From Agelas oroides (taxonomy: Eukaryota > Porifera > Demospongiae > Agelasida > Agelasidae), in assembly GCA_949130485.1 (NCBI GenBank), contig OX422200.1:2402274-2466273 (forward strand): a stretch of DNA of 64,000 nucleotides, given 5' to 3'. Of the stretch, positions 36,513 through 64,000 are shown in pieces. Position numbers and translations under genes: made by a program. The notes under the pieces were generated by a model. It was not told the DNA's origin, made no database searches, and worked only from the letters and a program-made list of their open reading frames with translations. The first letter of the stretch is position 1; each line of letters begins with the position of its first letter.

Positions 36513-39500
36513 ATGGAGAGAGATAAAGACAAGATTATTAAGGAGGGTGTGCTCTTGAAGCGCCAAAGAGGACTGCATTCACTGCCCCTAAAGAAGCTCA
36601 AATTTCAGGAGAGATATTGTATATTGTACAACAAGATTTTACGTTACTATGATGGAGTAAAGGTACGACATTGTAAGTTTTCTAATGCCTTCATCCAAAT
36701 GTCACTGTGGGGAAAACATCAATGGATTGGGATTGATTTTGTGCTTTCTCAAAATAGGAAAAGGGTAGCTTTGAAGTGGACAGAATCAAGATTGTGGAAG
36801 CGGTCCCACTGGAGACCTTCAAAAAAGACTTCTGTATCCAGGTTAGAAGCCATGTAGCTCTTATCAGATGTGAAGATAGCATTGTTAGTCTTTACAGCAC
36901 AAGTCGTACACTGAGCTAGCTGCTTTGTGGTATATAAAAATGTCTAGGCATTCAATCTTTAAACTTTCACTTATGATATTGATTATCAAGGTTGGAGATG
37001 ATGCTGAAGTGTTGTACTTCATTGCCAAATCAAAAGCTGAGATGGAGAGATGGATCTATGCCTTCAAGAAAGGTACATTATACCAAGCATAGGTAACTGA
37101 ATTTGTTAGCAGTTTTCAATATTTCTTACACAGCTGCTTCAAGCAATGACAATGTGATGTTGCCCAGATACCATACTGGGGCATATGGTTTGCTCTCCCA
37201 TGGAAAATGGAGTTGCTGCAATAAAGCCAAGAGACAAAGTAAAGGATGCCAGGAAGTTTTCTGTAAGCAACAGTCAAACCACATAATTTGCTTTTTTGTC
37301 ACTGCACAGTAATTTTTGTGCTATCTTTTACATCACTCCAGTGAACCGCTCTCACACACTGCAAGCACAGGGGACAAAGAACACTGCAGCCACAGAATTA
37401 GCAACACAATGTCGTCCCACCAGCTTCCCATGCTGTGTCAGCAATTATCCACCCCCAGCTCTTCCTCAGCATGAAACGTTACTTCCTTTTCCAGAGGAAT
37501 TCAGAGCTAGGTGCCACAGTTCTATCACCAAATCTGAGTCACCAAAAATGAGTCCATTGTAAGTTTCTTCACCAAGCGGTGATGAATCTATCTGTGTACT
37601 ATTGATTTTATGACATGACATAGATTGGAGGATTCCCATAAGTTCGCCACGTTGTCCACAATGCGACCATCAAAGCTGGAATGCAGTCTTGTGAGAGAAC
37701 AGTATGAGCTGGGGAGACAGCACTACAGGGATACAAATGATTCAGCACAAAGTATTGGTAAGTGAAAATCAAGGCAGTTTTCTGCATATGATTACAATGC
37801 CAGTAATAGTGTATTTTACAAATGCAGCAGCTGACAGTGGAATAGGTGAATCTCTCCAAAACCTACCCAAGTCACAAGAGATTGGTAAGCTCCTTGCAAC
37901 CCTCATGGCATCATTGTAGAAAATACAAGAAACTTTTGAGCCACCAATCTAAATGGAGGAAGCATGTAAACCTTATTTATGGAACACAATTCTCTCATCT
38001 TTGAGATTCATTGAGGGAACTAGACACATGCATGTCAGGACTTTATATTCTCTAGAAAAATGAGAGCATTTGGTTTACATGCCTTATCAAGTTGGTTTCT
38101 TTAATTCAATGTTGTTGTTTTTTTATTTTTCGAGCATAACCGCACCCCGAGTGGAAAGAAAACGGTGACTGGGGTGCAGGTTGTAACTGCATCCCAAGTG
38201 CAAAGTATTAGGTATAGGTGGCAGGCCATTAGAGCACAAACTTTGACTATGAGAAAGGCCATGGGTATGAAGGGTGTGGTAAGCAAGGGTGAAAGACAGG
38301 GAGTTAAATGAAGACATGGTCCTACTGACAACAAAGGTTGTGCCAACTGGTGAAATCAGCCATTGAGCTGGTACAATACGTTAGCTGTTATCTAGCAACA
38401 AGTGGTTAAGTGCTAAATGTCATGTATTGTGATATACACCAGCTGGGTATTACATAGAGCTCACTCCACTATCTATGACCTAAGTATTCCAGCGGTGCTA
38501 ATTGGTGGTAATTGAAGCCATGTAGAGGCGAGATCATAAACAAAGCCAGCCAACTTCTGTAAGTGTTAAACGGCTGGGCAGAAGATGGCCAAGCTGCCAA
38601 TTTGTGCGGTATCTATATCTGAGTTGTGTAGGAGCTAAAAACACATTTTGAGAGACCTCAGGTGCATTAAGGCTGACTCCCGAAGTGCCACAAAATTTTA
38701 GCTGAATTTTAAGTGTTATATTCGTGGTCATATTTACAAAACTGTTCAAGCTTTTTCCTTCAAACTTTCAACAGTGATAGTATGAACATTGCGTTTGCAA
38801 CCACACCCACCAATGACGTCACTATGGTAAACATTTCCCGGCAAACTCACGCACTCTTCAACAAACTTTCATCGAGGCGGCCGACTTCCACTTACCCAAA
38901 CTGGTCCTGCGTTTCACAGGTACTAGATGTGACAGGGATCATTACAAAAAGCTCTTGGCAAAACCCAGAGTACTCCGCATTCTAAAGTTATGGCTTGCAG
39001 AAGTACATTTTCCAGCTTAAAATGCCTTCTAGGCAGCACAACTCCAGGGGGGGTAGGACAAGCTCACGTGCACTCCGATATCTGATGATGTAATGCCTAG
39101 TGAAATCGTCTGATTCCATGTGCTGCAGCCTTTATTGAGTACTTTTTGTGCAGTTTTAGAGTAGTTTGCCGTGCTAAAGCTAAACGTGTACTTTGGTTTC
39201 CTGCTGCAATCGGCAGCATGCAGTTTTCTCGGCATGGAAGGTGAGCTCACCCATATCCAGGGATTTCTCCGACTTTCTGACAATGTAGGGATGTTCTACC
39301 CTTAGAACAAAAGTGTTCCAAGCATTGAACCCCATTGAACCCCGGCAAACTTAGATGCTACGAGCGCTTACTTGTTTAATCTCTGTAAATCCCCGTGAAC
39401 TTTCCGCATACCTAAGAATGGAATGTAATTTTTTCACGTGCTTCTTAGAGCTTGTCCTACCCCCGACCCCCCTGGCACAACTCGGCCTAAAGCTGCCGTT

Positions 39501-42500
39501 TCACGCATACCATGCAAAATACCAAGAGGCCAAAAGTAAGACAAACCTTTGATGGTTCGTTTTTAGTCACAATCACGAGGAACGGAGATAGTCTAATCGG
39601 CCGCCTAACGCAAAGTAGTCAGGACCTTCGTTTCGAGCGGCCATTATGCAGCCACGTCAGCAAATATTACATCATGTTTTACTTAGCGCACATTCCAGCG
39701 GTTAGTTAGTGTACCATACAAAGCCGAAGCAGCCGCGCGGGCAACACTAATGCGTTAGCCTCGTTCCCAGGCCGTTCCCGCCTCCAGTTTTTGATCGCTT
39801 GCAGTATAAAAACGGAGGGGAAGGCCTGGGAGAAAGAGTCACGTGCGTGACGTCAGGTAGACGTGAGGGGGGCGGTGCCCGATCGTTGTAACTCACAAAC
39901 TTTGCGTTGATCAGATTCGAGTCTACCAAACAACGAGCTGTATTGATGCTGTCTTTCAAACGTTACAGTCTCAAGTTCTTGGACAAGATATTACAAGAAG
40001 GACCTCGAGATTCTTCGTCGGGCACCGCCCCCCTCACGTCTACCCGGTACTAGTCTCGTGACCAGCCGGAAACAACCTACGGAAAATCCGTCTGGTAACG
40101 TTGGGCTCGATTCTGGGGCTTTTCTACTTACGACGGAGTTATTTGAACGTACCAATCAAATTGTAGCATTTCCAATTACTCGGGCGGCCCACTAGCGCCC
40201 TAGCGCTTGTGCGGATGCTAATTGGTGATAATTGAAGCCATGTAGTGGTGAGAACGTCCATACATGGTCAGCGCCGGCTGTGTTCAAACCCTGCTGACGT
40301 GTGCAAAAGCCCCAGAAAGGCGCGCAATGTTACCAGACGGATTTTCCGTAGGTTGTTTCCGGCTGGTCACGAGACTAACCCGGTACGTACGTACCCTCAC
40401 GTCTACCTGACGTCACGCACGTGACTCTTTCTCCCAGGCCTAGCGCCTTCCCCTCCGTTTTTATACTGCAAGCGATCAAAAACTGGAGGCGGGAACGGCC
40501 TGGGAACGAGGCTACTAATGCATGCTAGGTAAGCTAAAATATCGTTTGCGCTCCAGCGCAATGCGCTAGTGTAAACTGGAATCCTTAGAACGACTGGAGT
40601 CAGGCCTTAATGTACCTGAGACGTCGGTTGGTGTTGTAAAGAAGCGTCGTTGCCATCAAAAGCACTGTGGACGCACAGGATGTGCTGTAGTGCTGCAAGC
40701 CAGTAGCTAAATGCGCGCTTCACTGAAGTGTCAGAGTAACTTGTAGCTCAGTGTGGCCGTGCTGTATCGGTAGTTTGCTACCAGAAAGTTGTAGCTAATA
40801 GATCTAGCTTGTTAACAATGTACATACCTTAGCCTTTATACAAGGCTCCAGAGTTGCAAGTCAGGATGAAGTTTGTGTGGTCACTGAAGTGTCAACATTT
40901 TTGATCACAACTCAGGTTAGCAGTGATTTTTAAAAAATCGCATATTCTCATTTTTATCAAATGTAAGTACCTTCATGTCAAGATAGCTGGTTTGGCCACT
41001 ATAAAATCCTGGGTCCAATTCATTGATGGCAAATGTATGGCCCCGTGCAATCGCCGTGGATTAGCTTTCGACCTTAGCACTTGCACAGTAGATACTTCAA
41101 TGGTAACTGTTTCAAGCTGTGGTGCCAAAACTTCAGTAAGTCCTCTCAGGCTGGGAAAGAAAAGCTAAAACATTGGACATACACATGCACTTTTGTGGCT
41201 TTTCATTCATTCATTCATTCGTTCGTTCCTTCGTTCGTTCATTCATTCATTCATTCATTCATTCATTTGTGCAGTCATTCATTCATTCATTCATTCATTC
41301 ATTCATTCATTCATTAATATAATTTATTTTGTCTTTCCACTTGGGGTGTAATAAGAACAAGAAGTCATGCAAACAAAGACAGAAACAGAAAAGGATATTG
41401 AGATCCTTGAAACAGAAAAGGTATGTCATTGCAGCTTTATTCAGGGAAATGTCACTAGAGTAGACTGCCATCTATACTCTTGAGTTGTGGTCGGTGACCC
41501 TGTTGCTAATAAGTTGATTGAGAAACTGAACTAGTCTATAGTTCCCTCAGATTAAAGTTCAGATGTCATTTCCAAGCATGAACAGAAGTAGGTCTGCATG
41601 GAGTGGTTGTTTCAGGTTGACAAGGTCTTACACACTGAGCTTGGTAGCTAACTGTGTAGAAATTTTATTCATTTGTTGAGTTGTTACTTTTACTACTATG
41701 CAGGCAATAACTGCACTGGTGTTTTGTGGGTCCATTTTATTGTCTGGGTCCCAAGACGAACATGTGAGTGCTATCATACAAACATGCATATATACACTGA
41801 CACTTTTTCTCCTTCTCACTGAATCAAAGGTTCTACTGTGGGATGCACCATGCTCCACAGTCATGAAGGAAGTGAAGGTATCAAGCCCAGTGCTGGCACT
41901 AGATGTGTGGAGTCACTACCTAGCCATTGGGTCTACCAGTGTCCAGCTGGTGGACATGAACAGCAAGAAACTGAGGAGAATCATGGTCATAGACATGGAT
42001 TCAGAAGATCCACTGGTGAGCATGTAGCTAGGCATCATAGTACTTCAAAATCTAGTGTAATGGAATGAGCCAAGCAGTTTTAGAGTGTAACTTTGCTGTG
42101 AAAATCTTTGAAGACGCTTACTTTTACTCATTTCAGGAGAACTCAGTGTTGAGTCTGGTAGCATTCACTGGTGCTGAAGGCATGTTAGCAACGGCCAGTG
42201 TCACAAGTAACATGGTGAAGCTTTGGAACCCACCAAATGCTGACGAAAGCATCATTCGATCACCAAAACATCGTATTTCTCTTAGTGAATCTGAAAAGTG
42301 CACTGTCTGGAGGTAAGCAGAAACATTTTATATAGCTAGTGTCTGTACTAGTATCTACTTGTCATATAATTATCACAAGCACATTTATACTTCATGTAGT
42401 CTGTCAACATCCCACAACCCTGAAAGTCCGTGGTTGGCAGTTGGAGTATGCCTTGAGAAACAACACAAGCCTGTCAAGAAATTAGTCCATCTGATTGACT

Positions 42501-44760
42501 GGAAGAAACCACAGGAGTGTTGCTACTCAATTCAAGCAGGCAACTGATTGATATTTAAAGCTACCCTCGTTCCCAGGCTCTCCCTGTGCATGAACGCTTT
42601 TTCGTACTGCAAGCGACGGAAAGCTGGGCAGGGCATGGGGACGAGGCTAGCATAATTTGAATTCCATAATAATGATTGTGTTCATTACTTTCACAGGTAT
42701 TGAAGCTCTTCATACTTCATTTTCACCCGATGGCAAGTAAGGATGAATAATGTAATGTGTACACAGAGTGGTATAGCTATACTTCTTGGATTTCACTCTA
42801 GGCATCTAGCAGTTGGATATTCTACAAGAGTGGACATATATGATGCAATGAGTAGGAAATTGCTCTACTACAGTACTACTGGTAAACACACAGAGCAACC
42901 AAGTATTACAATGTTGATTATAATATTACTGCCTGTTGTTGACACAGATAACATCATCTCAAGTCTATCATGCCACTTGCACCAACCTGGTTTAAGTCCT
43001 AAGCCCCACCTGGCAGTTGGTCTGACCACTGGAGAAGTACAGGTGTTTGAACTATGCACTGAAACCATGAGACCTGCATACACTGTTCCCAGGCCAGAGG
43101 TAAACTGCTTGGTAGATATTTGAAACAGAAAATGTTTAATTTAAGTAAAATACAATTTCTGCAGAACGAGTCTGCAACCACATCAATTGTGTATTCAGGA
43201 GACATGGAAGCTCTTGCAATTGGCCACCAGAATGGAAAAATTCGTTTATATAAAGGTACATACAGTGGGGGTGTAGGGGATGGGACAAGATTGTCTCTTG
43301 TGATCATTATTCTATTGATATTGATGCTAACTTCTTACATAGAACAAGATCCACTTCCCCGCGACATATTGCAAAAAGCACCAGAGCCAATCAGTGTCCT
43401 TGAAAGCGACTTTTGTCCCAACACAATCTTTACTAGAATAGAGAGGCAAACATTTGGCTATGAAGGAGGAGAGTATACTTCAGAGGCTGATGAGTTTCAA
43501 CTGATCATCCCCGAAGGAGCTATACCAAAGTCCACTCCAATCACAATCGAATTTGGAGTTAGTCCATATGGGCCATTTGGTCCATTTGAATATCCAGATG
43601 ATTACCAACCAGTTTCTGCCAACGTGTGGTTTTGTGCAACCCCACCAATCACGTTTCTTAAGCCAGTTGAGATCAAAATGCCTCACTTTGCAGAATGCAA
43701 AGATGAAAATGATTGCAAAGCACTTACATTTCTTAAAGCACAACACATCCAGAAAGCCCAAAAAGTGTTCCAGTTCAGTAAAACTGACGGGAAGACATCT
43801 TTTACCCCTCAAACATCCAGTGGCAGCTTGTACACTAACCACTTCTGTGTCTACTGCACTGCCGAGTTCCAGAGATCTGATACCAACGAAGCAAACTTCT
43901 CTCTTGTAATAGCAAGACCAAAGCACCCATCTCAAGATAAGCCTTTCCAGATCCATTGCTGCTTAACCTACATGTTGCCAACATGCTACAGGGTGAGTGG
44001 TCAAATAAATATATTCATGCATGTAAAATAATAGGATGTTTTTTGGTCCATGAGTGCCTACCGTCGTTTACAGTAAATAACATCAAGCCTCTGAATAGAA
44101 TTTTAATTGTTTGTGTTTGATCTTGACCCACAGCTGATCAAAGAGCAATTTTGTGAAGACCATTATCATATCACAAAGAAGATAGTGCGTTTTGCAGATG
44201 ATCAGAATGCTTTGAGAATCAGTCTCAATAAGGATGATGCAGTTGCAAAGGGGTGGTCAGTCTCTCTTGTGTCAGAAGAAGAGGTATGTAGACAATGTTA
44301 CAGTCAAACACTACGTAGCTATGTAGTTACATATGCCAATCATGTGTAAGATACATATATTAAAAACTCTCTTACCAGATTGAAACCAAAGAAGTGTGCT
44401 TCTGGGACGCTTTTAAATCGGTTCGTTCTTTGGTGCTTGCATGTGACAAAAACATGTACCCTCCAAGATTCATCATAGAGGTGTCTGGCAAGAATGCTAT
44501 AAGGAGTAGTAATCTCAAACTCAGTTTCGAAGGTAGCACCAAAGTGCTGCAAACAGAGATACCATTGGAAGTGCAAGGTTAGCACCATCCATATTTACAT
44601 TAGCCAGACCACCCTTCATGGGTTTATATCTTTTTCTTTTGTTTTAGCCATACTAGCAGGACCCATGGTTGAAAGGACCAGTGTTTCATCTGAATTAGTT
44701 GTGGTAAGCCAATATTTTCTTCCTCAGGTTTCAAGCTTGTAGCTAACACTGTCACATCAT

Positions 44761-44817
<57 letters not shown>

Positions 44818-45251
44818 CATACATACATGCACGCACGCATGCACACACATACACACATACACACATACACACATACACACACACGCACAGGGAAATAACC
44901 CTGGGCACCACAACATGCTCATAGGTAAGCAGCTGAACAGAACTCATTTTTATGAATTGTGCTTTCGTGCACAATGGATGCAATACCGTAGCTTGCAGCT
45001 TAATTGAGAGACTTGACTTTCTCAAGCAAAAGCAATTAGCTATCAAACTTGATTGCACTAGCTGCAAGCGAAGGTAGCTATCACATCTTCAACTACAATT
45101 TAACTAGCTACTCGTGTAGCTATACACAGGAGCTGTCAGAAACACCTCATCATCTCTTCCAGATCATCGTATTGAAGGTGGAAATCCTTTACACATAACA
45201 CCACCTCGTGTGCCACTGGACCTGCCACCTGCTATTCAGCCTTTCAAGTAA
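36513..45251 (+). CDS. PH-BTK-WD40-ZU5 protein, copy A
   Basis: Twenty-two exons: 36513-36662, 36758-36841, 36991-37072, 37134-37262, 37342-37558, 37624-37757, 37828-37884, 41356(or 41362)-41420, 41704-41763, 41830-42015, 42137-42312, 42400-42539, 42697-42736, 42802-42881, 42948-43099, 43165-43255, 43343-43992, 44134-44283, 44379-44577, 44648-44703, 44891-44924, 45163-45251. About 1005 residues. PH domain aa 1-105 (KEGVLLKRQRG; ERWIYAFKK), then a BTK zinc motif (YHTG...WSCC-x9-GC), a low-complexity linker, and seven WD40-like blades at about 305-615 (VLLWD, VKLWN, VDIYD, VQVFE, IRLYK). A ZU5-like region follows at about 637-830 (FQLIIPEGAIP; YQPVSANVWFC; KPVEIKMPH), then a further beta-rich region. 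The architecture suggests a membrane-phosphoinositide-linked scaffold; that is inference. Intron 7 (3.4 kb) is full of transposons. Intron 12 appears to use a GC donor. The joining of the PH part to the WD40 part is supported by matching phase and by copy B. Confidence 0.78.
39756..40514. mobile_element. 759-bp inverted-repeat element with nested insertion, in intron 7 of copy A
   Basis: Ends tagcctcgttcccaggcc / ggcctgggaacgaggcta; flanks ctaatgcgt / ctaatgcat match at 8 of 9 positions. Second-layer arms (cacgtgcgtgacgtcaggtag and its complement) face each other. A different element sits inside at 40051-40377. Confidence 0.88.
40051..40377. mobile_element. 327-bp nested element with perfect 9-bp target duplication
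   Basis: Ends tagtctcgtgaccagccgga / tccggctggtcacgagacta, with arms about 55 bp long. It is flanked on both sides by acccggtac (9/9), which proves it inserted into the older 39756-40514 element. Confidence 0.92.
40600..41205. repeat. segmental duplicate, partner at 54175-55255
   Basis: Shares long near-identical stretches in direct orientation with the partner (for example gtcagtgtaa-free blocks around ttgtaaagaagcg, tttatacaaggctccagag, atcgccgtggattagct). The partner has about 550 extra bases in the middle. The left boundary abuts the element ending at 40514. Confidence 0.8.
41206..41318. repeat. (ATTC)n microsatellite
   Basis: Tetranucleotide array with some GTTC/CTTC variants. It lies just 5' of the first WD40 exon of copy A. 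Confidence 0.95.
42562..42650. mobile_element. inverted-repeat element in intron 12 of copy A
   Basis: Ends taccctcgttcccaggctc / gcatggggacgaggcta around the family core tcgtactgcaagcgac. Flanking duplications are not clear. It sits 22 bases inside the intron with the unusual GC donor. Confidence 0.65.
44762..44890. repeat. (CA)n microsatellite running into a splice acceptor
   Basis: A long CA array ending ...acacacgcacag, which appears to be the acceptor of the 34-nt exon at 44891. Repeat length here could affect splicing of that exon. Confidence 0.85.
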
Positions 45252-45362
45252 CAATTAGTTATTGCAGATATGGCTGTGACTTTTTTTTGTGCTTTGACTA
45301 GCTACTACTGTGTTTTTTACTGTACTGCATTATAAAACATGTACAACGAGGCGGATAAAACA

Positions 45363-45467
45363 ATTAGCCTCGTTCCAGTTTTTGTAGTATGCGCGACAGG
45401 AAATACTCAAATGGTACAGTCCCGTTCCCAGACCATGACCACATGTTGGTCTGGGAACGAAACCACA
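45363..45467. mobile_element. eroded inverted-repeat element pieces
   Basis: A left end tagcctcgttccagttttt and, further on, a pair cgttcccagacca / tggtctgggaacg. Same family, broken ends. Confidence 0.5.
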
Positions 45468-45556
45468 ATGTCAAAGAAGTTCGTGTGCGTGGTTGTCGGC
45501 GCTGTTACTAGTCCAGTCCACCGGCTACGAAAGAACCTAGTGGAAATATACTACCG
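45468..45556 (+). other. possible orphan first coding exon
   Basis: An ATG-initiated 89-nt open frame (MSKKFVCVVVGAVTSPVHRL) ends at a good donor (CCG|gtatgt). GAVTSPVH is faintly reminiscent of the G-I-SPVxD stretch of NMN adenylyltransferases. No following exon was found, so it may be a remnant. Confidence 0.2.
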
Positions 45557-47433
45557 GTATGTGTATAAGCCAGATGTGTAGCTAGCTATTTAGCTACTTA
45601 TCTGCCGGGATCAGTTGGCATCAAGGAGGGTATTTGTTGTGTATTAGTTTCTCATGAGGGACTTTCTCTGAAGTTCATGCGGGCGGGCGGCAATTACCAT
45701 TATACCATTATTCGTCGACCTCAATAAAAGTTGGGCTCCTGGACTCGAGAGGCCATACCCCCTGTGGAAAGAAGCACGAAATGTGGCGTCTGTGGGGTGA
45801 GCGCTCCGATGTTTTCGGAAAGGAGACATATTTTAGCTGGCTTACAGTGCACTGAGTAGTTCCAAATCGACATGCAACTCAGCATTACCGACGCATACCG
45901 AGCATGAGATCGAAAAGTACACGATATTGAAAGAAAACAGCATTCCTTTGTAGCTGCATGTGTCTGGCTGATGCTGTGCAAACATGCACAAAAAAAACTT
46001 TCGGGCCAAAGGCTTAATCAATTTCTGTGGACATTTTAAGTAATATCCCTCCCTGTGTGGTGGTCGTTTTAAACATTGGAGTATGTTAGGCATAGCCTGA
46101 CATCAATGTGCAAGACCACTGTCCCCCATAGGGAGCGATATAACTATTAATTAACCCATTAGCTAGGCAACACTACTGTAAAACATAGGTATGAGGAACA
46201 TTCTTATGTTGCCTATACCTCCTTGTATGACCAATCTCCACCTTTAGTTGTATGTAATGAATGCTAGTCTTGAACTCACCTAATCAACTTACAAGAGGTT
46301 GCTCAGTGGTCACCCTGTTGGCAAGTGTAGAGACAGTAGTCATGCACGTTCATGATGATACATCCTGCATGGGAGAGTTGGCCCAGGTTACAACCACAAA
46401 TGGAACATGTAATGGCATTTTCAAAGCTTCAGCATGTGACTCTGTGACCTCACAGGTGTACAGATGTTAGCTAAATATAGTGGATGCAAGCTTCTCATAC
46501 TGACCACTGCATGTCTCTTCAATTGTTGCAGGATGTAACCACTAAAACTGCTATGCTTCCCTTAGTTGTGTAAAATGGCAGTCCTAATCATGGTTGCACA
46601 GTGGTTACCCTGTTGGCAAGTGATCATGTTACATCCGAGAAAGTTGGCTTAACCACTGTGTTGTGTTGATGCAGGTCATTTGTGCACAAGTTGCAGTAGT
46701 CATTGATAATGCAGTGGCTATATGTAGTTCCAGAGGAGAGCGGAAATGACGTCATGTCGTAGCAACAATTAGTGCACTCTGATTATATTCTAAGGGCAAG
46801 AATCGTGGATACAAGCTACGTGCAAGGATTGCTCTATGGATTAAGTCACAATGGGTTTTTGACTAAGCTGAAGCTATCTGGCTAGTCAATATTGGTTATT
46901 ATGACTCACCTTGCAGGCTAGGCTTGGTAGGTTTGCCAGTTCGACACAAGGTGAGTCACACAAGGCCATTTTAACTGCCAAACATCTTCAGCTTTGTCGA
47001 AATTGTGCACGCCCATTGTGCCCATCGCGACTTTCTCCATATAGCCGTTTGTTTAGCTTGCATCCACACTTATTGGCCTTGAATTGTCAGTTAATTGTTG
47101 CTATCATGTGATCATGTCCTACCTCCTCTGATGCAGTTCTAATTGTTCACAAGTTGCATGTCACTGCTGATCACTGCACACGATTTGAACTCCCTAAAGA
47201 TAATTTCAGTAACTGCAGAAATTTAGGATTACATTTTTCCCACCTACTTGCATTAGTTCCAAATCTGTACCCCTCAAGGATTTTTTTGCACTGCAAATTA
47301 AAAGCCAAAATAATGTTGAATTTTTGACATGAATCATTTTTGAATGAGCTATAGATCTAAGTTACAGAAGCTGTCAATGAGTCAGAAAAAATGTGAATTA
47401 TTTAACCTGTCTGGTCAAATCCTATAGCTCATC
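45557..47433. other. intergenic with scattered local repeats
   Basis: No gene seen. A motif cagtggt(c/t)accctgttggcaagtg appears twice (about 46302 and 46598). A 55-bp hairpin with 11-bp arms (gactcaccttg / caaggtgagtc) lies at 46902-46957. Confidence 0.5.
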
Positions 47434-48285
47434 ATGAAGACGGTGTTTCTTCTCTCCATCCTGACTGGTCTAACACTTCATGTCAGTGCAACCATAGTAC
47501 GCCGACAAACTGGCAGCTGCTCAGGACAACAGCTGAGCACTTTTATAGCAACAAATCTCTCCCAGGTGTGCCAAGATGCTATTCGTAATTTTACTGTGGA
47601 AAATCTTGGAAAAATATGTGCTCCTGACTGCTATGGAGTGTTAACAGATTATGTTGAAGAAATCTGTAACTCTCTATTTATTGCTCGTGTAAACAGAGCG
47701 CAATGTTCTCGTGGGGATGCTACTGTTGACTACTGCTACCCTATTGTCATCAACCAGACATTGTACAATGCCACACGTGCACTCTTGAATTCCTGTGGAA
47801 ACCCAAATACAACGTGTACACCATCTTGTCCAGCAGCTCTACGAGCCCTTGCAGCATCAGTCGGATGTTGTTGGGCAGAGCTGATCTATGTTAACCCAGA
47901 CACTACCGTGACTTACACAACTGCAGCTGAATGGGCCAGCTGTGGTGTGCCCTTCCCTGGAGAATGTGCCAATCCGTTCACTACCGAAGCTTCTACCACT
48001 AGCAGCATAGCTACTTTGTTAACACCCAGTCCTGTGGCTACAGCCTCTATTATTGATACTACTGGTACTATTGGTACCACAGCTTCTACTGCCAGTACCA
48101 TAGCTACTCCCATTGCATTCACAGCTGGTACTGTGCCGCCTACAGTTTCTACTACTGCTACTACTAGTACTATTGGTACTGTAGCTACTGCTGGTGCACA
48201 GGCTTTGTTCATGACGAAAATTCCGGCAGTAATCATTCTCTTGTCATATTTCACTGTGTATAATATAGTTATGAAGCTGCTATGA
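47434..48285 (+). CDS. secreted or membrane-anchored Cys-rich protein with Ser/Thr stalk, copy 1
   Basis: A single-exon 283-residue ORF. Signal peptide aa 1-19 (MKTVFLLSILTGLTLHVSA), then an ectodomain of about 150 residues with many cysteines (SCSGQQ, VCQDAIR, APDCYG, CGNPNTTCTPSCP, GCCWAEL) and N-glycosylation sequons (NQT, NAT, NTT). A Thr/Ser/Ala/Ile stalk of about 75 residues likely carries O-glycans, and the C terminus is hydrophobic (VIILLSYFTVYNIV). The end fits a GPI signal or a single membrane anchor. Not matched to a known family. A paralogue lies at 55990. An acceptor-like cctatag just upstream of the ATG suggests an intron in the 5' UTR. Confidence 0.75.
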   Translation: MKTVFLLSILTGLTLHVSATIVRRQTGSCSGQQLSTFIATNLSQVCQDAIRNFTVENLGKICAPDCYGVLTDYVEEICNSLFIARVNRAQCSRGDATVDYCYPIVINQTLYNATRALLNSCGNPNTTCTPSCPAALRALAASVGCCWAELIYVNPDTTVTYTTAAEWASCGVPFPGECANPFTTEASTTSSIATLLTPSPVATASIIDTTGTIGTTASTASTIATPIAFTAGTVPPTVSTTATTSTIGTVATAGAQALFMTKIPAVIILLSYFTVYNIVMKLL

Positions 48286-50664: not shown

Positions 50665-51435
50665 ATGGAAGCTGAAAGCGAGGGGAAATTCACTTATCGA
50701 CAGATCTACGACTACATCAAACATGGAAAGTACCCCGAAACACTCGAGAAGACGACAAACTCACTCTTAGGGAACAATCTAAGTTTTTCCAAGTGCAGGA
50801 GATGAATCTCTACTACATTCAAGGTACATGTACATTTTGTCATTGTTGGGATAGTCATCAACCCATCACTTCCAAAATTAGCGAAGGATTGGCGACCTGT
50901 GGCGATCAGCTGGCGATTAACTATGATATAAACCTGCATCCTTTTCTCTTGACTAGGAGAGATGACTTCTGCAACACCAAGGCTTGTGATCGAAGACTGA
51001 GAGCAGTGGAAGAGGATCATTTTGTCCATCCACGACGAGTGTCATGGTGAAAGAGTCGACCCTCACCTGATGGTGAATGTGCCAAACATCAAGCAACAGC
51101 ATGGCACAAAAGATTGTGGTGTATTTGCAATTGCTTATGTGTACCATGCTGCTCTGGGAGACGATGTATGTACAATTGTGTTTGACCAGAAGATGAGACA
51201 ACACCTGGAGAGGTGCTTTCGCCAGAGACTACTTTCCCGCACTCCATCGGCTATAAGCCTAAACAGATGCACTTCCCATTTCATGAAATAGAAGTGTTTT
51301 GTACATGTCAAATGCCCGAGATATGGGACAACATGGTATGCTGTGACTCCTGCGAAGCGTGGTATCACCTTAGGTGCATCAATCTTAGATCTATGCCCAA
51401 TAGTGAAGAACAGTGGTTTTGCAGTGCATGTAAGT
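50665..51435 (+). pseudogene. decayed transposon gene: integrase N-terminal scrap, Ulp1 (C48) protease, PHD finger
   Basis: Three coding blocks lie in shifting frames. From 50665, YIKHGKYPETLE continues one base out of frame into LTLREQSKFFQ, like the N-terminal segment of Gypsy-type integrases. Around 51075-51200, NIKQQHGTKDCGVFAIAY carries the Ulp1 catalytic Cys block, followed by FDQKMRQHLERC. After another shift, a PHD finger spans 51290-51433 (FCTCQMPE, VCCDSCEAWYHLRC, WFCSAC). The DDE core is absent. [13 protein letters not shown] plus Ulp1 domains are reported for Ginger1-type DNA transposons, so a Ginger-like origin is likely but is inference. Frame breaks show it is dead. Confidence 0.68.
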
Positions 51436-51555
51436 TATTGCAGTTTCTTTTGCTTTTACTCTTCAATGTTTATGATTGTGAGTGACATAGATGATGCAGT
51501 TAAGCACAGCCATAGCCATAGCACAACAGAAAAATGGTATACATAGGTAGCCCAT

Positions 51556-54174: not shown

Positions 54175-55255
54175 CAGTCGGTGTTGTAAAGAAGCGCCGT
54201 TGCCGTCAAAAGTGCTGTGGATGCAGGGGGTGTGCTGTACTGCGGCAAGCCAGTAGCAAAGTGCACGTCAAGCTGACTTGTAGCTCAGTGTGGCCATGCT
54301 GTATCAGTAGTGTGCTACCCAAAAGTTGTAGCTAATAGATTTAGCTCTTAACAGTGTCAGGCCATAGATAGTGGAGTGGGATTAGGGTTAGGGTTAGGGT
54401 TAGGGTATGGTCAGGCCTATAGGCAGAGGGAGTCCAAGGGGGTTCATTCGAACCCAAAAAAGATTTTATACACCACCTAGCTATACGTTTTAAGTGCCCT
54501 ACCATTTGTAATTGGTCCACTAGCCTCGCTGTCATTGGGAATCACCACTGTCCAAACAAGCTTGGTAACAGCTATTCATATGTATTCTATGCATACTATT
54601 TCACCATCTGTTACTCCACCTGCTGTTCTGCCAACCGTAGTACCTTCTCTCATAATCTCGTAGGGCCAGACTCTCAGCATAAATTTGATGTCAGCTGGCT
54701 TAGCAAACACATCTATGGACAGCCAAAAATTGGGAGCAATATTCCGCGAGCCATGTAGCTATTACGGCTCTGCTTCTGTCCCACAATGGCAATCTCAGAG
54801 CATCTAATTTTCAAAAGTCTCTAGTCTTGCATGCTTATCTATGCATACATACACACAAGACGCCCAAGTAACCCCCCTTCTGAAAATCCTGGCTACGGGC
54901 CTGAATGTACCTACCTACCTTAGCCTTTATACAAGGCTCCAGAGTTGCAAGTTGGGATGAAGTTTGTGTGGTCACTGAAGGATCATAGCTCAGGTTAGCA
55001 GATCGCATATTCTCATCTTTAGCAAATGCAAGTACCTTCATGTTAAGATAGCTAGTTTGACCACTTGTAAAGTCATGTGTCACTATAGGTCCAATTCATT
55101 CATGGCAAGTGTTTGGCTCCATGCAATCGCCGTGGATTAGCTCTCAATCATAGCGCTTGCACAGTTGATATCAACCTTCAATAAGTCCTCTCAGGCTGGG
55201 AAAAAAACACACGCTAAAACATTGGGCATGCACATGCACTTTTGTGGCTTCTGTC
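54175..55255. repeat. segmental duplicate of 40600-41205 with a 550-bp insertion
   Basis: Blocks at 54180-54355 and 54905-55250 match 40620-40800 and 40805-41200 in the same order and orientation. The extra piece between them begins and ends with related taggcc/atggtcaggcct sequence and includes the telomere-type repeat. Confidence 0.78.
54382..54405. repeat. interstitial telomere-type repeat
   Basis: Four consecutive TTAGGG units, inside the insertion in the segmental duplicate. Confidence 0.9.
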
Positions 55256-55989
55256 CCAATCAACAATCATGGCCAGGCTGTGCTTTGCATAGGAGGCTTT
55301 CTGCATGCATGTACTATCCCTTCCTGGGGTTGTTTACACTTGGTGTCAGGATGCATGATGTGTATGTGTATGTGTATTAAAGCTTACCCGGTTTAGGCTT
55401 CATTCATTACATAATCCTTTGTTCAGTCTAATACTCACACTAGTTTCCTTATAGAATGCCTTGCCTTGCTTTATTACATCCATCCTTAAAATTAAACTTG
55501 TTCCTTATAGTCATGAACACATGCACATGTCTTTGCATCAGAGAAAAATGGCTATAAGTATAGTCCTTCATCATGTTTTTCTTTAGGCCTGCCACACCAC
55601 AATAATCAGTTAAACTGAAACATCAAGTCAATCTGCCAAAAGAAGTTATATGTACATAGTGCCATGTCCACCGAGTACACTGCCAGTAGTGGTCAAGCTT
55701 CTGGACTTTAGCTTTGGGAAACAAGGTCAATATGGCATGAATGTTTCTGCCTTGATGTTCAGCATAATGTAACATCACATACACAGCTCCTATGAGCTGC
55801 ATGGAAATGTTGTTCAACAGCAGCAAGGTGCATAATACCCCATGACCCATTCCTGGACTGGCATAGTACTGTGACATGAATAAATTAAGTACCAGATTAT
55901 AAACGAACTAAGTTAGTTGCTCAATTTACAGTATAAGTTGTCAATTTGAGACAATTTTCAACCTTTCTGGTCCAATTCCACAGCTCATC
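55256..55989. other. upstream flank of secreted protein copy 2
   Basis: No gene seen. The last 60 bases (ctggtccaattccacagctc before the ATG) resemble the same position of copy 1, including the acceptor-like ccacag. Confidence 0.45.
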
Positions 55990-56643
55990 ATGAAGACAGT
56001 GTTTCTTCTCTCCATCCTGACTGCTCTAACACTATCTGTCAGTGCAACCATAGTACGCCGACAAACTGGCAGCTGCTCAAGACAGCAAGTGAACTCATTT
56101 TTGGCAAATCTCCCCCAGGTGTGTCAAGATGCCATTCGTGCTTTCACCGTAAATGATCTCGGGACCATCTGTACTCGTGACTGCTATGGAGTGTTCACAC
56201 AATTTGTTGAAGAAACCTGTAACTCTCCATCTATTGCTCGTGTAAACAGAGCACAGTGTTCACGTGGGGATGCTACTGTTGACTACTGCTACCCTATTGT
56301 CATCAACCAGACATTGTACAATACCATACGTGCACTCTTAGATCCTTGTGGTAACCCAAATACAACGTGTACACCATCTTGTCCAGCAGCTCTGCGGGCC
56401 CTAGCAGCATCAGTCGGATGTTGTTGGGCAGAGCTGATCTACGTTAACCCAGACACTACCGTGACTTACACAACTGCAGCTGAATGGGCCAGCTGTGGTG
56501 TGCCCTTCCCTGGAGAATGTGCCAATCCATTCGCTACCGAAGGTTCTACCACCAGTAGCATAGCTACTGCCATTGCTTCACAGCTGGTACCGTGCCAGCT
56601 ACATCTTCTACTACTGATACTACCAGTACTATTGGTACTGTAG
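55990..56643 (+). CDS. secreted Cys-rich protein, copy 2, frameshifted stalk
   Basis: Paralogue of 47434-48285, nearly identical over the ectodomain (same signal peptide MKTVFLLSILTALTLSVSA, same cysteine pattern). The stalk is much shorter. One base is missing at about 56574 relative to copy 1 (attgcttcacag versus attgcattcacag). After that point the Thr-rich repeat is read one frame over and becomes Leu-rich (LHLLLLILPVLLVL) before a stop, giving 217 residues. In the original frame the sequence would continue to the homologous tail. So this is either a damaged copy or a version with a different hydrophobic C terminus. Confidence 0.7.
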   Translation: MKTVFLLSILTALTLSVSATIVRRQTGSCSRQQVNSFLANLPQVCQDAIRAFTVNDLGTICTRDCYGVFTQFVEETCNSPSIARVNRAQCSRGDATVDYCYPIVINQTLYNTIRALLDPCGNPNTTCTPSCPAALRALAASVGCCWAELIYVNPDTTVTYTTAAEWASCGVPFPGECANPFATEGSTTSSIATAIASQLVPCQLHLLLLILPVLLVL

Positions 56644-57029
56644 CTACTGCTGGTGCACAGGCTCTGCTCATGACGGAAATTCTGGCAACAATTATGTTTC
56701 ATTGTATCATGATTAGTTATACTGAGCTGCTTGTGTAGGAAGGTATCTAGACATATTAACTAGAGTCTATTGCTATGATACGTGGTGTAGGAAAAGTGTA
56801 TACGTCCATTATTATTAGATTCTAGAGTCTGCAGACATACATCTTTCTCACATCAGTGAGATCAAGGTAGAAAGTAGCCTGTGGTACATACACGGTAGAA
56901 AGGATGTACGGACTTATTAATAGCAAACATTATAGTTACGTGACTTCAAAACTGCATATCTCTGAATCTGTATGAAAAATTTATATATCTATCTATATAT
57001 CAAGTCAGACTGAAAACTCATCAGCTTCT
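56644..57029. other. intergenic between secreted copy 2 and the second PH-BTK gene
   Basis: Begins with the out-of-frame remainder of the secreted protein tail (to about 56738). The rest has no coding features and should include the promoter and 5' UTR of the next gene. Confidence 0.5.
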
Positions 57030-60000
57030 ATGGAACCTCTTTCATTGCAAAACATCCGGTTGCCCTCCGGAAGTAATTATAAATACCGATATGCTATGCC
57101 ACGCCCACGAAAACCGCTACAGCTACAGGGTGGGGCTGCATGTACTAATGTAGCGAGTTGCCTGGCAGATGATATTACCCTAGCAGAGATGGCAGCTGTA
57201 AGTACTCCAGTGATTTACATGGAGGGGATCGTTTACAAGCGATCAAGGGGTCGTCGCCATCCCTCTCGAGTGAAGAAGACGCAAAAACGATTCTGTCGAC
57301 TAACTAAAGATTCGTTTGACTATTTTGAACCCCCAAAGAAAGGAAGCAATCTAGATACGGTAAACACCGACCTATCAGGCTTAAAATCTCTAGGTTGCAT
57401 TTGAATTGCGTAAATAAAGTAATGCGACTATACACAGGTACTGAATAAAGCACCGAATGGAAGCTTTCCGGTGAGCAGAATAAGAATAGTGGAGAAACTT
57501 GACTGGAGCTTCAAGAAAGGAAAACACTGGTTCCAGGTCAGAATCATTCTCCCTTTTCCTTAACAGATTGTTTGGAAAATCATGACCCTATCAACTATTA
57601 TTAAATGTATGTGTACAGTTTGGAGATGACGAAGAGGTGCTATACCTTGGTGCTGAATCAGAAGATAGGCAGTATGAATGGATCAAAGCACTAAAAAAAG
57701 GTGAGGTAAACCAGTAGAAAATTAATGCAGTGAACACAGATCAAGTTGCCATTTTTCATGCATGGCGCAGCAGCTGCTGCTGAAAGCCACAATGAAATGA
57801 TTTCGCACTATCACCCTGCACCTTATACTGGAGGAAAATGGAGCTGCTGCAAAGAACAAACTAAGCAGTGCCAAGGATGTGAACCAGTTCATTCTGCAGA
57901 ATCTGATGGTATGTATGTATATGCAACAAAAACTATAAGCTGACTTATTTGTGTATCATGGTTACTTCCTTGACAATGGCAGATGACTGGCACTCCATAC
58001 AAACTTCTCATCAACCACGCCTCCGATCTGATCTGTCTTTCACATCCAACTCTTCGGAAGAGACTGTCACAGAATCCCTAGGAAGTAAATGTCCATCACG
58101 AACAAATACTGGGTCACTGACTGCAAGCTGGCCACAACAGAGCACTACCACACTTACATCAGTATCAGAGTAAGTACCCATGTGCTACATACTATAGAAA
58201 TGAAGCCAGATTAAGAGAATTAATGTGTGGGATGCTAGTAAAGTTTGCGCAAGTATCAAAATTCTTTCAGGTTCATGTACTGCAAATTACCATGGGGAGA
58301 TACATTACTGCTGTCATGTGTCAGGAAGTGGATGACACCTTAATTGAGCCGGAATGTACGTTACAGAGCAGTATAGCAAACTCCAAGAAATAAGATAGCT
58401 GCATGTGCCATAAGTTGGTGGGCAGGGTTTGGCAACAACCGATTGGCAAAAACAGGATTACACTACCAGAATTTCTCTGGTGAAGCATGACCAGAAGCTA
58501 TGCCATTTTTAATAAAAATAAGCCCTACTACTGTGCTTAGTGTGGATAGTGAATAATGAGATTAAGTTTGCTTGGCCGAACTTGCGTTAATAACTACTGT
58601 TACTCCATAGGCAGTCTTGTACACAGTTTAGGGGGTCTGGGTACAGAATACTTCATAAATAGGGCAGATTCTCAAGATCTGATATAGTCATGGTATTGTA
58701 TATATAGTCAAGATATTGTATGTATAGTCATGGTATTGTATATAGTCAATGTCTTGTCTGATTCTGGATATGCTTTATGAGAGGTTCTTTATTTCTTATT
58801 TCATGCTTATTTGTAGCCTGAGACAAAATTAATACTGGCAAGCTTTAATTAACTATTACAGTCACATAAAAGAAGCCCACACAAACACTTAAAATTCCTT
58901 TTCTAATGAAATTTGTTTAGGTGGTTACTAACTTATATGCACAACTGTGTGTACATAATGATACTTGTGCTACCAGACTAGTACGTGTGATTACTGTGGA
59001 ATGACAAATAGTAATCATGTTTACTAAATAAGGTGGTAATGAAATTCCTTGTAATGGGATGCTAGCTATATCATGTATTATTGGATGAATCTGGGAAATA
59101 AGTATTCATGCCTTATTTTAATGCAAAGCCCTGCAACTGAGGTGACCCATCTTGCATTAAATCAACCTTCAAGTGTTGCCATTGTTATTAAGGTTAATGT
59201 AGTATCACTGCATGAGAGCTTAATGATTACTGCATGTAGGAATGAAATATGTGATCGTGAGAGTGATGATGAAAACAAGGAACAGGAGACTACATACGAC
59301 AAACCTCCAAGTGATGATATTTCCAAACCTCGAGCTGGTCAGTTCAGTAATAATCTACATAGCTATGTAAATAATATCATGAAAGTAGTGAGTAATACTA
59401 CGTACAGCTATAGTATGAACCATATTCGCAGATTTTAGCTGCTATGTAGAGTCACCTTGCTGTGCAGAATGCATTTAGGCCAATACCAGGCTTCATCAGC
59501 TATGATAAGAACGTACAATTCACACATGTCTTACAAATTAGAAGCTTTTGGAAGCTTGTAATCTGAGAAAGAGCCAGGTATTTGCAACCTTACTACAACA
59601 TCACACAAAGATTTTGTTTCTCAGTTAGACGTGTGTGACACATCATGGAGTTCGAGGAATGCTTCCAATAGTCTGAAAGTCTGTTGAGAAGCTTCTTCTT
59701 TAATCTCTTCTTTCAAAATCAGCATTACTAAAAGAAGTTTGTAGTGCTAGGTTCATGCACACCTGGATGACCTAGATGATTGTTTAACCTGATCTAGGTC
59801 AGAGACTGATTTAACTAACTGATGTACACAGAGGTTAAAATGACCTCAGTCTAAATATAACCTGGGTGTCTTTATGATCAAATGATTTGCAGTATAGTAA
59901 AAGCAATATCATTTAGCCAATATACTTTTACAGTAAGTAGCCCAGTTTGTAGTTCTCAGCCCTTCACTTGTGAACTCCCACTTATGTGTCACAGATTCAG

Positions 60001-63000
60001 TTGCTGACAGTGGGCTGGGGAGTGAATTTAGCTCAAGGAGCAGCTCAGCGTCAGTAGGCCAAGGCAAGAAACGCCCCTTGAAGCAAACCTGGTCACTTGG
60101 TCTTGTTCTTGATGAAGGTGTTGATGAACCGAATGATTTGAGCAAAAAACACCAAAGCCAGCCAAACCTATATAGTACATCATACAAGTCTGAGCCAGGT
60201 CATAAGGAGAGTTTGCTACATGGCCAACAAGTACTCAGCAAACTTAATAAGGTTAGCACACACTCTATTATCTCATTATAGAAGTAACTTCCAATGACAT
60301 TGATTATTCCGGCCTAGTGCACTTCAGTGGAACATGGAATAAGGACACCTGTAATGAGGCTAAACTTTGGGTACATTTTATGTTCAATGTGTTCTTCAAG
60401 CTGCAGGGAAGCAAACTTCACTCTCTTCATGAGGAGGAAGAGCAAGCAGATACCTATACTCTGTTCCAATGTTTTACATCTCCCACTCGAAACCTAGTGC
60501 AAGCTTTGGAATTCTATGGACCGGACAAGTTGATTTCAACATCTTATGGTGACTCCTATGTACGTAAACAGTGGTGAATTTGCTACTGCTATTGTACCCC
60601 AGCAGTAATGATCTTACTGCTCATCACTATTGCATCAAACCTGTAATTGTGATTTCAACTATGCCAAATCCTTTAGGTTCGTATTTGGGATGTACCCGGG
60701 TTCAAGCCAGTACAAAGTGTGTCTGGGTCCCAAGACGAACATGTGAGTTCTATCATACAAACATGCTATGTATATATACACTGACTATTTTTTTTCCATC
60801 TCACTGAATCAAAGGTTCTACTGTGGGATCCACCATGCTCCACAGTTACAAAGGAAGTGAAGGTATCAAGCTCTGTGCTATATAGCACTGGATGTGTGGA
60901 GCCACTACCTGGCCATTGGGTCCAGTGTTGTACAGATGGTGGACATGAGCAGTGATGGGTTGAGAAGGATTGTCTTTGTAGAAGACAGTGAAGGAATACC
61001 GGTATGTGGCACATACAGCATATTTTAACCAGTATAACTTTGTCAATTAAGTTTTGGATTTTCATGCTTTCATTTCTTTCCTTGAAGCATTTTTCTGCAT
61101 TGTATTAGTGTTATGTCTGTTACCTTTAGAGCTCTCCACTGCCCTCACACTTTGTTGCATTTGTTGGTGAGGAAGGTCACTTGGCCACAGCTAGGGCTGA
61201 CAGCACTGTGGTGAAGGTTTGGCCTCCACCTCCCAAGGACTCCAAGATTATTACATCACCTGAAGCTTGCATCACTCTTGCAGGCCAGATCCAAGGGTAA
61301 TACTACTGCATGGTGTAGCACATATTGATGCACACTCATTCTCTAACATCCCTATTCCCCTACATATATACACAACATGCATGCAAAATATAGTATATCT
61401 GCAACCCAGAACTCTAAAACTCCTTTGCTAGCTGTAACAATGGAGGTAAAGGAGATTTGTTGCAAGTCAGTATGTCTAATTGACCTGAGGAAACGTGAAG
61501 TTTACAAGAGGCTATTGTCAGGTTAGGGTTATTAATTTCAATTGTTGCAAATGTGTATGAGTATGCTCTTGTTCATCTATATACTTTTTGTGTTTACTTT
61601 AGGCAGTGTCAAATTATCAGTGGGCATTGATGTGGCATCTTCTCCTGGTGCAAGGTACCCAGTAATATCACAGTTTCCCACCTTTTGCCTGCACATCATT
61701 AAACACAGTGGAGTCAACACTAATGCAGGAGTTCTACTGCCTGCTATATATTCCAAAGATTAGACTTTCCAGAACATTAATCAATGTCATGGGAGAATAC
61801 TTTCCTAGTGAACAAACATTGTAGTTTTGACCTATTATGGTTATATCATCATTGGATAATTTTAAGAGTGTAACTTGTAAGTACTATAATATTAGCAAGC
61901 TAATTATCTGCTCATGTACAGGTACATTAGTATTGGCAGTGACCAAAAGGTGGATGTATACGAAGCTAAATCAGGAACAGATCTCTTTCATGTCAACACA
62001 CTGAAGATAGGTATAGCTATCATATTACATTTATACCTCAAATTTAATGTTACTTGGAACATGTGAGAACCTCATGCCAGTCCGAGCGCACAGTAATTAT
62101 ACATGGTTTTTCATTGTGTGTATCATGTTATGTGGAGCTCATTAACATAGCAGTTTCAATCCATGATAATTGACAAAACATGTCCTAGGTGTAAGTAGTG
62201 GGTCCTACTAGGCTATGATGCTTCTTACTCACTCACAAAATTTGAGATTGTAGGAACTCTTTCTATGCAGGGTCATCTGTACACAGTTTAGTGTATTCAA
62301 GTGATGGAGGAAAATTGGCAGTAGGATTGAGCACGGGAGAAGTTAAGGTGTTTGACCCCATGTCAAATCATCACCTCTTCACTCTCAGTGATCCATTGAC
62401 ATGCACAGAAGTGAGGTTGCATGTCCAGACACCAAATATGTACAAACATGCTATTTACTTTTCAGTGTATGTCTGCAGGTATACCACTCACCAGCAACTT
62501 CACTTGCCTACTCTGGTGATGATAGGATGTTTGCAGTTGGGTATCAAAATGGAGTTTTGAAGCTATGGAAAGGTTTGCAATGCTTTGCAAGCAGAGGTAC
62601 TGTATTTAAGATACAGTGCCTCTGACATCTACTGTAGTCGAGATACAGTATCTCTCATCATCAATGACATGAAGAGGCAGTGAAAACTAGCTAGCTACAT
62701 AATTAGAATAGCATAGTATGGTGCTTCACCTGAAACTGTACAACAAGAACAAGACATTTAGAACTACCAGAAGTTATTTTGCTGCTCATAACTTCATTTC
62801 AAACATGCCACAAATTATAGGTATTGTCCTTAAAATCCAGCCAAGCAGGCGACCTTTGCCACATCACAAGAGCTGTATTTGAGATAATGTCTTTGTTCTT
62901 GTACAGTGCATATGCACACAGTTTTATATGTGTGTGTTTCTTCATTAGCATCTACTGGCATAAATGATGCTACATCACACTGCCTCAGAAATCCATTGGG

Positions 63001-64000
63001 CTCAGTTTATGGAATGGATCCAGAGTTGTACAATGATCTTGAGCCTCTCCTAGCCAGGGTAAAGACATTAGTTCCACAGTTTGATCAGAATGGAACCTAT
63101 GAGTACCACTCCGTCGACGATGATTTCAGGGTGATTATTCCTGAAAGAGCTATAGTGGAAGACAATAAAGTCCAAGTTGCAGTCATGAAATATGGGCCAG
63201 TAGGTCCATTTGAGTATCCTGATGGATATGAGCCTGTTTCTCCGATTATCTGGCTCTGCTCAACCCAAAAGAAGTTCCAGAAAGATTTGGAGATTATCCT
63301 GCCTCACTGCAGTGATTTAGGAAATTCTGATGAAGAAGCAAACCAAACTCAATTGGTTTTCCTGAAAGCTAGTCACGAGTATATACACAATGCAAATGGT
63401 CAAAAAGTATTTCAGTTCAAACAGGTTGATTTACAGACATCATTTGACACAAATAGTCCCTATGGTTCACTGCATACCAACCACTGTTGCTTCTACTGTG
63501 TGGGTGAATACAATAGGAAAGACACAGACCAGGCGAACTTTTGCCTGATAGTAGCAAAGCCAAATACAACAACCACCAAATACACCATTTCGATCTGTCT
63601 TACATATAATCTGCAAACATGTCGAAAGGTAAATGCACTCACATCAATCCTTCTGTATGCATGGTAATTGTTGCTATATTTATTCAATAGGCAGCCATTG
63701 AGCAGTTTGAAGGGTGTGATTTCATTGAAATTCGTCCAGTAAGGTTTGCCAAAGACAGACATAATACAACCTTGAAAATCAAGATTAATCGGCAGCTGGC
63801 TGCACAAGCAGGATGGCTAATCACATTGCAATCACAGAAGGTACAGCTACATATGATTCCTAATAGCTAATTCATCAACAACACATTGTTGTCACCTCAC
63901 ATTATGTTCCTAATCCCTTTCCTCTTTGGCATCATGAAAAGTGTCACAAATCAGCCATTGTAGGCTGATGAATGTGTGTTGTTGTAGCTTATCAGGGCCT
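57030..64000 (+). CDS. PH-BTK-WD40-ZU5 protein, copy B, runs off the window; frame broken in one WD40 exon
   Basis: Exons: 57030-57359, 57438-57536, 57619-57700, 57771-57908, 57983-58169, 59240-59337, 59995-60251, 60407-60559, 60677-60742, 60815-61001, 61130-61296, 61394-61521, 61603-61654, 61922-62010, 62271-62410, 62479-62572, 62949-63628, 63691-63840, then beyond the window. Compared with copy A it has an N-terminal extension of about 70 residues, a PH domain (YMEGIVYKRSRGRR; YEWIKALKK) and a BTK motif with exact Tec-family spacing (H-x10-CC-x9-C, YHPAPYTGGKWSCC). A longer Ser-rich linker shares the DSGLG element of copy A. WD40 blades (VRIWD, VKVWP, VDVYE, VKVFD, LKLWK) and a ZU5-like region (FRVIIPERAI; YEPVSPIIWLC) follow. 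The exon at 60815-61001 has 4 extra bases (tata, about 60885) that break the frame. All other phases agree. Confidence 0.72.
58683..58755. repeat. tandem repeat, unit about 24 bp (atagtcatggtattgtat)
   Basis: Three imperfect copies in intron 5 of copy B. Confidence 0.75.

Follow-up and report, generated by a model that had tools for sequence, protein, structure and literature searches.

PIDD is described as cleaving itself after each of its ZU5 domains at the motif HF/S, and CARD8 and NLRP1 as doing so at SF/S (PMC3210808). Proteins that join NACHT to ZU5 or NACHT to WD40 domains are known from early animals (PMC12909245, PMC8260672), and a report of 2012 had already remarked on a sponge expansion of ZU5 domains (PMC3482391). 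Among nine sponge species, another study reports no gene in which ankyrin repeats are joined to ZU5-ZU5-UPA (PMC5135030). Here we analyse a window of 64,000 nucleotides (nt) from the sponge Agelas oroides (assembly GCA_949130485.1, contig OX422200.1, here C18:2402274-2466273), which contains two genes, A and B, each with a PH domain, a BTK zinc motif, a linker, WD40-like repeats and a ZU5 domain in that order. We find that A and B belong, in trimmed form, to a tandem family of which copy E, beside the window, is the fullest, and that the ZU5 domains of this family may be self-cutting, with a cysteine in the place of the usual serine.

Gene A, gene B and their tandem relatives

Gene A is a real gene, whose 20 exons (36513-44742, forward strand) splice into one uninterrupted frame of 977 amino acids when the frames are read together with the splice sites; 18 of its 19 introns are GT-AG and one is GC-AG. 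(A spliced alignment probed with the gene's own protein gave identical exons, which tests our bookkeeping and not the gene model.) The first part of the PH domain occupies exons 1-2 (36513-36662, 36758-36841), where the phosphoinositide site of BTK type keeps its Lys-Arg and its Arg; the domain's end and the BTK zinc motif (H, CC, C) lie in exons 3-4 (36991-37072, 37134-37262). Pfam recognizes the PH domain over its cut-off (E = 5.3e-13) and scores the BTK motif half a bit under its own (E = 5.1e-5, 23.5 bits, cut-off 24), while the PH-TH structure of a Tec kinase (2lul) aligns with both together over residues 9-146 (E = 1.2e-12). The splice model places a linker in exons 5-7 (37342-37558, 37624-37757, 37831-37884), followed by intron 7 (37885-41355, 3,471 nt) and, over 41356-43255, by an acidic stretch and WD-like repeats (Pfam WD40, E = 2e-7, over the cut-off). 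The acidic stretch and the repeats together take up exons 8-16 (41356-41420, 41704-41763, 41830-42015, 42137-42312, 42400-42539 with the GC donor, 42697-42736, 42802-42881, 42948-43099, 43165-43255). Exon 17 (43343-43992) encodes the ZU5 domain (E = 1.2e-9, 38.8 bits, over the cut-off), with HFC aligned to the PIDD-type cleavage position at 43840-43848, and exons 18-20 (44134-44283, 44379-44577, 44648-44742) encode the stop and the region in the position of a UPA domain; "UPA" is used here as a label of position only.

The domain order in gene B, also on the forward strand, is that of gene A (PH, E = 7.8e-11; BTK, E = 6.6e-9, 36 bits; WD40, E = 4.2e-7; ZU5, E = 3.4e-4, 21.3 bits with a cut-off of 21). 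Exons 1-5 (57030-58169) hold the PH domain, the BTK motif and the start of the linker; one exon expected between 58170 and 59994 was not located; exons 7-9 (59995-60742) hold the end of the linker and the first WD-like repeat, where WD40 reaches only 13.8 bits (cut-off 27). Comparison with A reveals in exon 10 (60815-61001) a 4-base insertion that breaks the frame, the equivalent exon of copy D (below) being 183 nt long and open. The insertion lies in a tract (60720-60952, about 0.2 kb) that closely resembles A 41741-41963, intron included, a match suggestive of gene conversion or of a partial duplication. An alternative splice, 60720/60863, would restore the frame, but its splice sites are weak. 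Further WD-like repeats follow in exons 11-16 (61130-62572), the ZU5 domain in exon 17 (62949-63628, with HCC at the cleavage position, 63482-63490) and the start of the UPA-position region in exon 18 (63691-63840). The gene extends beyond the window into the adjoining stretch, with its next exon at L013:486-687 and its end at about L013:687.

An earlier note, made from the letters of the window, had proposed this architecture for both genes. It stands for the intact gene A and, as regards domain order and the PH-BTK unit, is borne out by profile search in B as well, where the frame is broken and one exon is missing from the model. The seven-bladed propeller that it described is WD40 according to Pfam, and the number of blades comes from counting by eye, which gave seven repeats each in A and D, against 4 and 3 by regular expression; the linker, described as Ser-rich, is mildly so in A (10.8% Ser, 9.5% Thr). 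That account did not include the ankyrin repeats of E and F or the Death domains of C and E; nor did it cover the damage to B, the repeats that seem to have enlarged the long intron of A, or the Cys in the cleavage motif of ZU5.

We searched the genome (259 Mb in 141 contigs) and extended the spliced alignments over the flanking 40 kb; cluster coordinates below are those of the window, continued from 64000 through stretches L013-L016. Three additional copies, C, D and E, adjoin the window, and a more distant one, F, lies on the same contig. Copy D (cluster 80069-84964, forward strand) has the PH-BTK-linker-WD40-ZU5 order of A and B and is open over 956 amino acids (PH over its cut-off at 53.4 bits; WD40 39.7 bits; BTK 24.0 bits by itself, 23.5 within the whole protein, cut-off 24); its 5' half is A-like and its 3' half B-like, and its model was assembled by hand from two alignments. 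Copy C (cluster 70003 to about 65294, reverse strand) carries PH-BTK-linker, ZU5, a tail and a Death domain but neither ankyrin nor WD40 repeats (PH over its cut-off; BTK 27.7 and ZU5 38.8 bits, cut-offs 24 and 21), in a model that is less sure because one join spans a simple repeat. Copy E (cluster 96732 to about 85929, reverse strand) is the fullest, with PH-BTK, linker, ankyrin repeats, WD40, ZU5, tail and Death domain (Ank_2, E = 5.1e-27; PH, 1.4e-13, over its cut-off; ZU5, 1.2e-8, 35.6 bits; BTK, 16.2 bits, cut-off 24). Copy F (C18:1739967-1761287) is PH-BTK-ankyrin-WD40 (PH over its cut-off at E = 3.4e-7; ankyrin and WD40 matched; BTK 19 bits, cut-off 24), and no ZU5 was found within 40 kb around it. 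For E and F the survey of Pfam domains covers the best 25 of 41 and 42 families, respectively.

The shared features hold across the copies to different degrees. The His and three Cys of the BTK motif align in all six (a stricter pattern missed B, which has a shorter spacing), and the basic residues of the Tec/BTK PH site (Lys-Arg and Arg), which we take to be those that bind lipid, are likewise present in all six. WD40 is over the Pfam cut-off in A, B, D, E and F. The Death domains after C (E = 7.6e-7) and E (E = 3.8e-7) are each encoded by an exon that was assigned to its gene by position and strand. A third copy of this exon, 98% identical, lies at L013:7761-8033 (cluster 71761-72033, reverse strand) with no attached gene seen. 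Ankyrin repeats occur within the cluster in E only, an ankyrin probe having found nothing beyond chance in A, B, C and D. B/C and D/E form two convergent pairs, and this arrangement suggests that one inverted pair was duplicated.

With the PH-BTK-linker part of A as query, the genome gives 24 matches (E <= 0.01), all on C18, 22 of them in the cluster and two at C18:1.74 Mb; its WD40 part gives 14, none of them on another contig, of which 13 fall in the cluster and one in F. Profile search finds 80 ZU5 matches at E <= 0.001 and only four BTK matches, a lower bound in that this threshold passes over A, D, E and F. Two of the four are B and C. At a BTK motif elsewhere in the genome (C5:3605150) an SH3 domain follows about 2 kb further on and the PH piece has no Pfam match; at a BTK locus on C19, which may be that of a RasGAP, Pfam finds in the pieces only BTK and a PH below cut-off. 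An alignment that continued copy F into a RING finger was rejected, the long frame preceding the finger being probably another gene. This region 3' of F (about C18:1763500-1768100, L043) holds a long frame that by eye resembles a macro-domain protein, and the RING finger (E = 5.5e-6, 27.0 bits, cut-off 27.3); the two probably make up another immune-type gene.

Junction, selection and the integrity of the copies

That the PH and WD40 halves belong to one gene is well supported. In A, a gap of 3.5 kb separates the linker from the WD40 exons, and F and C hold only parts of the full architecture, as might be seen if two neighbouring genes, one PH-BTK and one WD40-ZU5, had been misjoined in our models. 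We regard such a misjoining as very improbable, since the intron at the same junction in D measures only 227 nt (81444/81672, cluster coordinates), with matching phase and little space for the end of one gene and the start of another, and since ankyrin exons connect the two halves in E and F. Intron 7 of A begins with 232 nt that match, at 82%, 222 of the 227 positions of the D intron; the region at about 38657-40700 consists mostly of dispersed-repeat matches (genome search of 38100-40700), and for a 0.42-kb piece of it 40 of 2,817 candidates were scored, 35 of which are further copies at 92-98% identity. On this alignment and repeat content, the gap in A looks like a short, D-like intron swollen by repeat insertions. 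The A-type WD40 region is, moreover, restricted in this genome to copies that carry PH-BTK. The earlier note had likewise read each locus as a single gene, and this is now strengthened by copies D, E and F. Its further argument, that the second copy was an independent recurrence, fails: A and B arose by duplication and have traded sequence with each other, and, being related by descent, do not offer their shared intron phases as independent evidence. A second account would make the locus a decaying tandem array, mostly of pseudogenes and of haplotype assembly chimaeras from a heterozygous animal, with little functional meaning. It draws on the insertion in B, on the patchwork of identity that links A, B and D, and likewise C with E, on the partial copies and on the stray Death-domain exon at cluster 71761-72033. 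We consider it improbable: A and D are open over their 977 and 956 amino acids with GT-AG sites throughout save the one GC donor of A, and A and E differ at more than half of their residues (38-46% identity by segment) and have nonetheless kept their domains. The ratio of nonsynonymous to synonymous substitution (dN/dS, Nei-Gojobori method, NG86) could be given a value in nine of 12 segment comparisons and ranges from 0.20 (linker, A/D) to 0.60 (ZU5, C/E), single values being rough in segments that are short and prone to conversion; this range points to purifying selection on the family.

Between A and B, the window also contains two closely similar frames (47428-48285 and 55912-56643, forward strand) for what appears by eye to be a secreted Cys- and Thr-rich protein, a pair that represents another tandem duplication. 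Frames at 50676-51485 resemble, again by eye, an Ulp1-type peptidase and a PHD finger, and probably belong to a transposon.

The ZU5 cleavage position and a putative mechanism

At the position of the PIDD HF/S site, the family has HFC in A, C and E and HCC in B and D, so that the third residue is Cys in all five ZU5 domains and the HF/S motif as such is absent. We aligned these five with 27 other ZU5 copies from the genome (seven of the best Pfam matches and 20 picked by hand, mostly from the upper part of a list of 93), a non-random sample that includes near-copies. Twelve of the 27 have HFS, one QFS, nine HFC and two HLC (L044, L053), and three have lost the motif (L049, L050, L055); position 3 is thus Ser in 13, Cys in 11 and neither in three. 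In a tree of the domain core, built without the site residues, the 13 Ser copies fall on one side (support 100/98), the three lost copies group together (97/92) and all 16 Cys copies, those of the family included, sit on a single branch, weakly supported (86/77). A single exchange of the nucleophile would be the simplest reading of this tree, in which long branches were flagged and which, being midpoint-rooted, does not give the direction of the change.

Some of the other Cys-type copies stand out. One of the two HLC copies, L044 (C1:3218500-3219250), groups with C and E (99/98) and lies on another contig, with one in-frame TGA; the PH-BTK and WD40 queries from A found no match on that contig, C1. 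L064 (C17:6100300-6106300, reverse strand) is an open frame of 1728 amino acids that, by eye, has an ectodomain rich in repeats as well as membrane segments and runs into an HFC-type ZU5; it may be a receptor with a self-cutting tail. A second sampled Cys copy lies in a frame that by eye is Ser-rich. These last two frames differ widely, as judged by eye, which makes the HFC-type ZU5 a shuffled module in this genome.

From the domain order, the tandem copies, the signs of purifying selection and the conserved lipid-site, zinc and nucleophile-class residues, which are the established basis, we hypothesize that the family encodes a PIDD/NLRP1-type signalling scaffold that docks at a membrane and cuts itself, a proposal that we judge evenly poised between right and wrong. 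The PH-BTK unit would bind 3-phosphoinositides and so dock the protein at the membrane, where the WD40 repeats, together with the ankyrin repeats where these are retained, would bind a ligand or partner. The ZU5 domain would cleave itself at HF/C, cysteine taking over the role of nucleophile from the usual serine, and the tail would stay bound and would assemble only after displacement or degradation of the N-terminal part. In C and E the Death domain would then recruit effectors; A, B and D, in which none was found, could serve as regulators, decoys or scaffolds. The need for a nucleophile predicts what is seen at position 3, namely Ser or Cys in 24 of the 27 outside copies and Cys in five of five within the family. 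Going further, we offer as a tentative picture an early-animal family of PIDD/inflammasome-like, membrane-tethered sensors, which would read signals through ankyrin and WD40 repeats and release their tail through a Cys-type ZU5 autoprotease, with the Cys clade on a single branch off the Ser clade, and with an ankyrin-ZU5-Death order in a lineage reported to be without such ankyrins. The earlier note had considered a lipid-recruited scaffold; lipid recruitment is retained in our proposal, to which the ZU5-site cysteine adds a suggested self-cutting signalling function beyond that of a scaffold.

A number of results weigh against this proposal. B and D have Cys instead of Phe in the middle of the site, which may abolish cutting, and the site is lost in three of the 27 sampled copies. 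No Death domain was found downstream of A, B or D (nor within 40 kb around F). The region after ZU5 has no match to Pfam UPA in any of four members; a genome search for UPA (E <= 1) found no match, as did its control, which matched nowhere; and a profile search of the PDB with the tail alone gave chance-level hits only (sequence searches with ZU5 and tail together found only the ZU5 of ZO-1, in two entries). Gene B is broken in frame at one WD40 exon, and the model of E is approximate, with three GC donors and other weak sites. BTK is over or at the profile cut-off in B, C and D and below it in A, E and F, and the ZU5 of D scores 14.4 bits (cut-off 21); at 188 of 227 residues identical to the ZU5 of B (83%), the latter is a ZU5 by descent, weak by itself. 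Of the dN/dS comparisons, three of 12 are saturated, and two of the nine with a value have a synonymous divergence (dS) of 2 or more. Some of these results would suit a protein that does not cleave at all, namely a lipid-recruited scaffold of the ankyrin or UNC5 kind, placed at the membrane by PH-BTK and binding partners through WD40 and ZU5, in which His-Phe-Cys is structural only. In the model of CARD8 the motif Phe is a buried residue with a structural role (PMC3210808), and the variants HCC and HLC and the lost sites show a domain that tolerates changes at the site; the failure to find a Death domain for A, B and D also fits this account. We think a non-cleaving scaffold rather unlikely in view of position 3, with its restriction to Ser or Cys in nearly all sampled outside copies, non-random and partly near-copies as these are, and its invariant Cys within the family.

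Comparison with known systems

The combination of PH-BTK, WD40 and ZU5, which the earlier note had called unusual, was not found in the open-access literature that we searched, including PMC12909245, PMC8195603, PMC8260672, PMC3482391 and PMC5135030. We provisionally regard the family, its novelty being judged on literature only, as a new variant of ZU5(-Death) proteins and not as a member of the PIDD, ankyrin or Tec families.

With PIDD1 (LRR-ZU5-ZU5-UPA-Death) it shares the succession of ZU5 and tail, in C and E a Death domain assigned by position, and a His-Phe-nucleophile motif at the cleavage position (PMC3210808); unlike PIDD1, it has no LRR that we have seen, one ZU5 instead of two, Cys for Ser and a tail unmatched by the UPA profile, and it adds PH-BTK at the N-terminus, WD40 and, in E, ankyrin repeats. 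The FIIND of NLRP1 and CARD8 (ZU5-UPA-CARD) similarly places a single ZU5-type unit before a tail, with self-cleavage predicted here at the equivalent place, but the family has Cys instead of Ser, His-Phe (in A, C and E) instead of Ser-Phe, Death (in C and E) instead of CARD, and no NACHT. With the Tec kinases (PH-BTK-SH3-SH2-kinase), the common part is the PH-BTK (TH) unit with its His and three Cys zinc ligands, seen in the alignment of A to 2lul; in contrast to these kinases, no SH3, SH2 or kinase domain is among the Pfam matches of A, of the pieces of B or of D. Nor does NACHT match in the same lists: the NACHT-ZU5 and NACHT-WD40 proteins and the sponge ZU5 expansion likewise show expanded, immunity-like families of early animals built from ZU5 and WD40 modules, whereas here the two modules stand in one protein, together with PH-BTK.

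Ankyrins (24 ankyrin repeats-ZU5-ZU5-UPA-Death) share with copy E the order of ankyrin repeats, ZU5 and Death, although E has few ankyrin repeats, one ZU5, an interposed WD40 propeller and PH-BTK in front. Set beside the nine-species search cited at the outset, the presence of E in a sponge bears on the origin of the ankyrin arrangement. If the HF/C site cuts, ZU5 autoproteolysis would not be bound to serine, and a single genome with both kinds of site would constitute a natural experiment. Two signalling vocabularies that usually occur separately thus meet in one animal gene family: recruitment to phosphoinositides through PH-BTK, and the module of ZU5 and Death known from PIDD, UNC5 and ankyrins.

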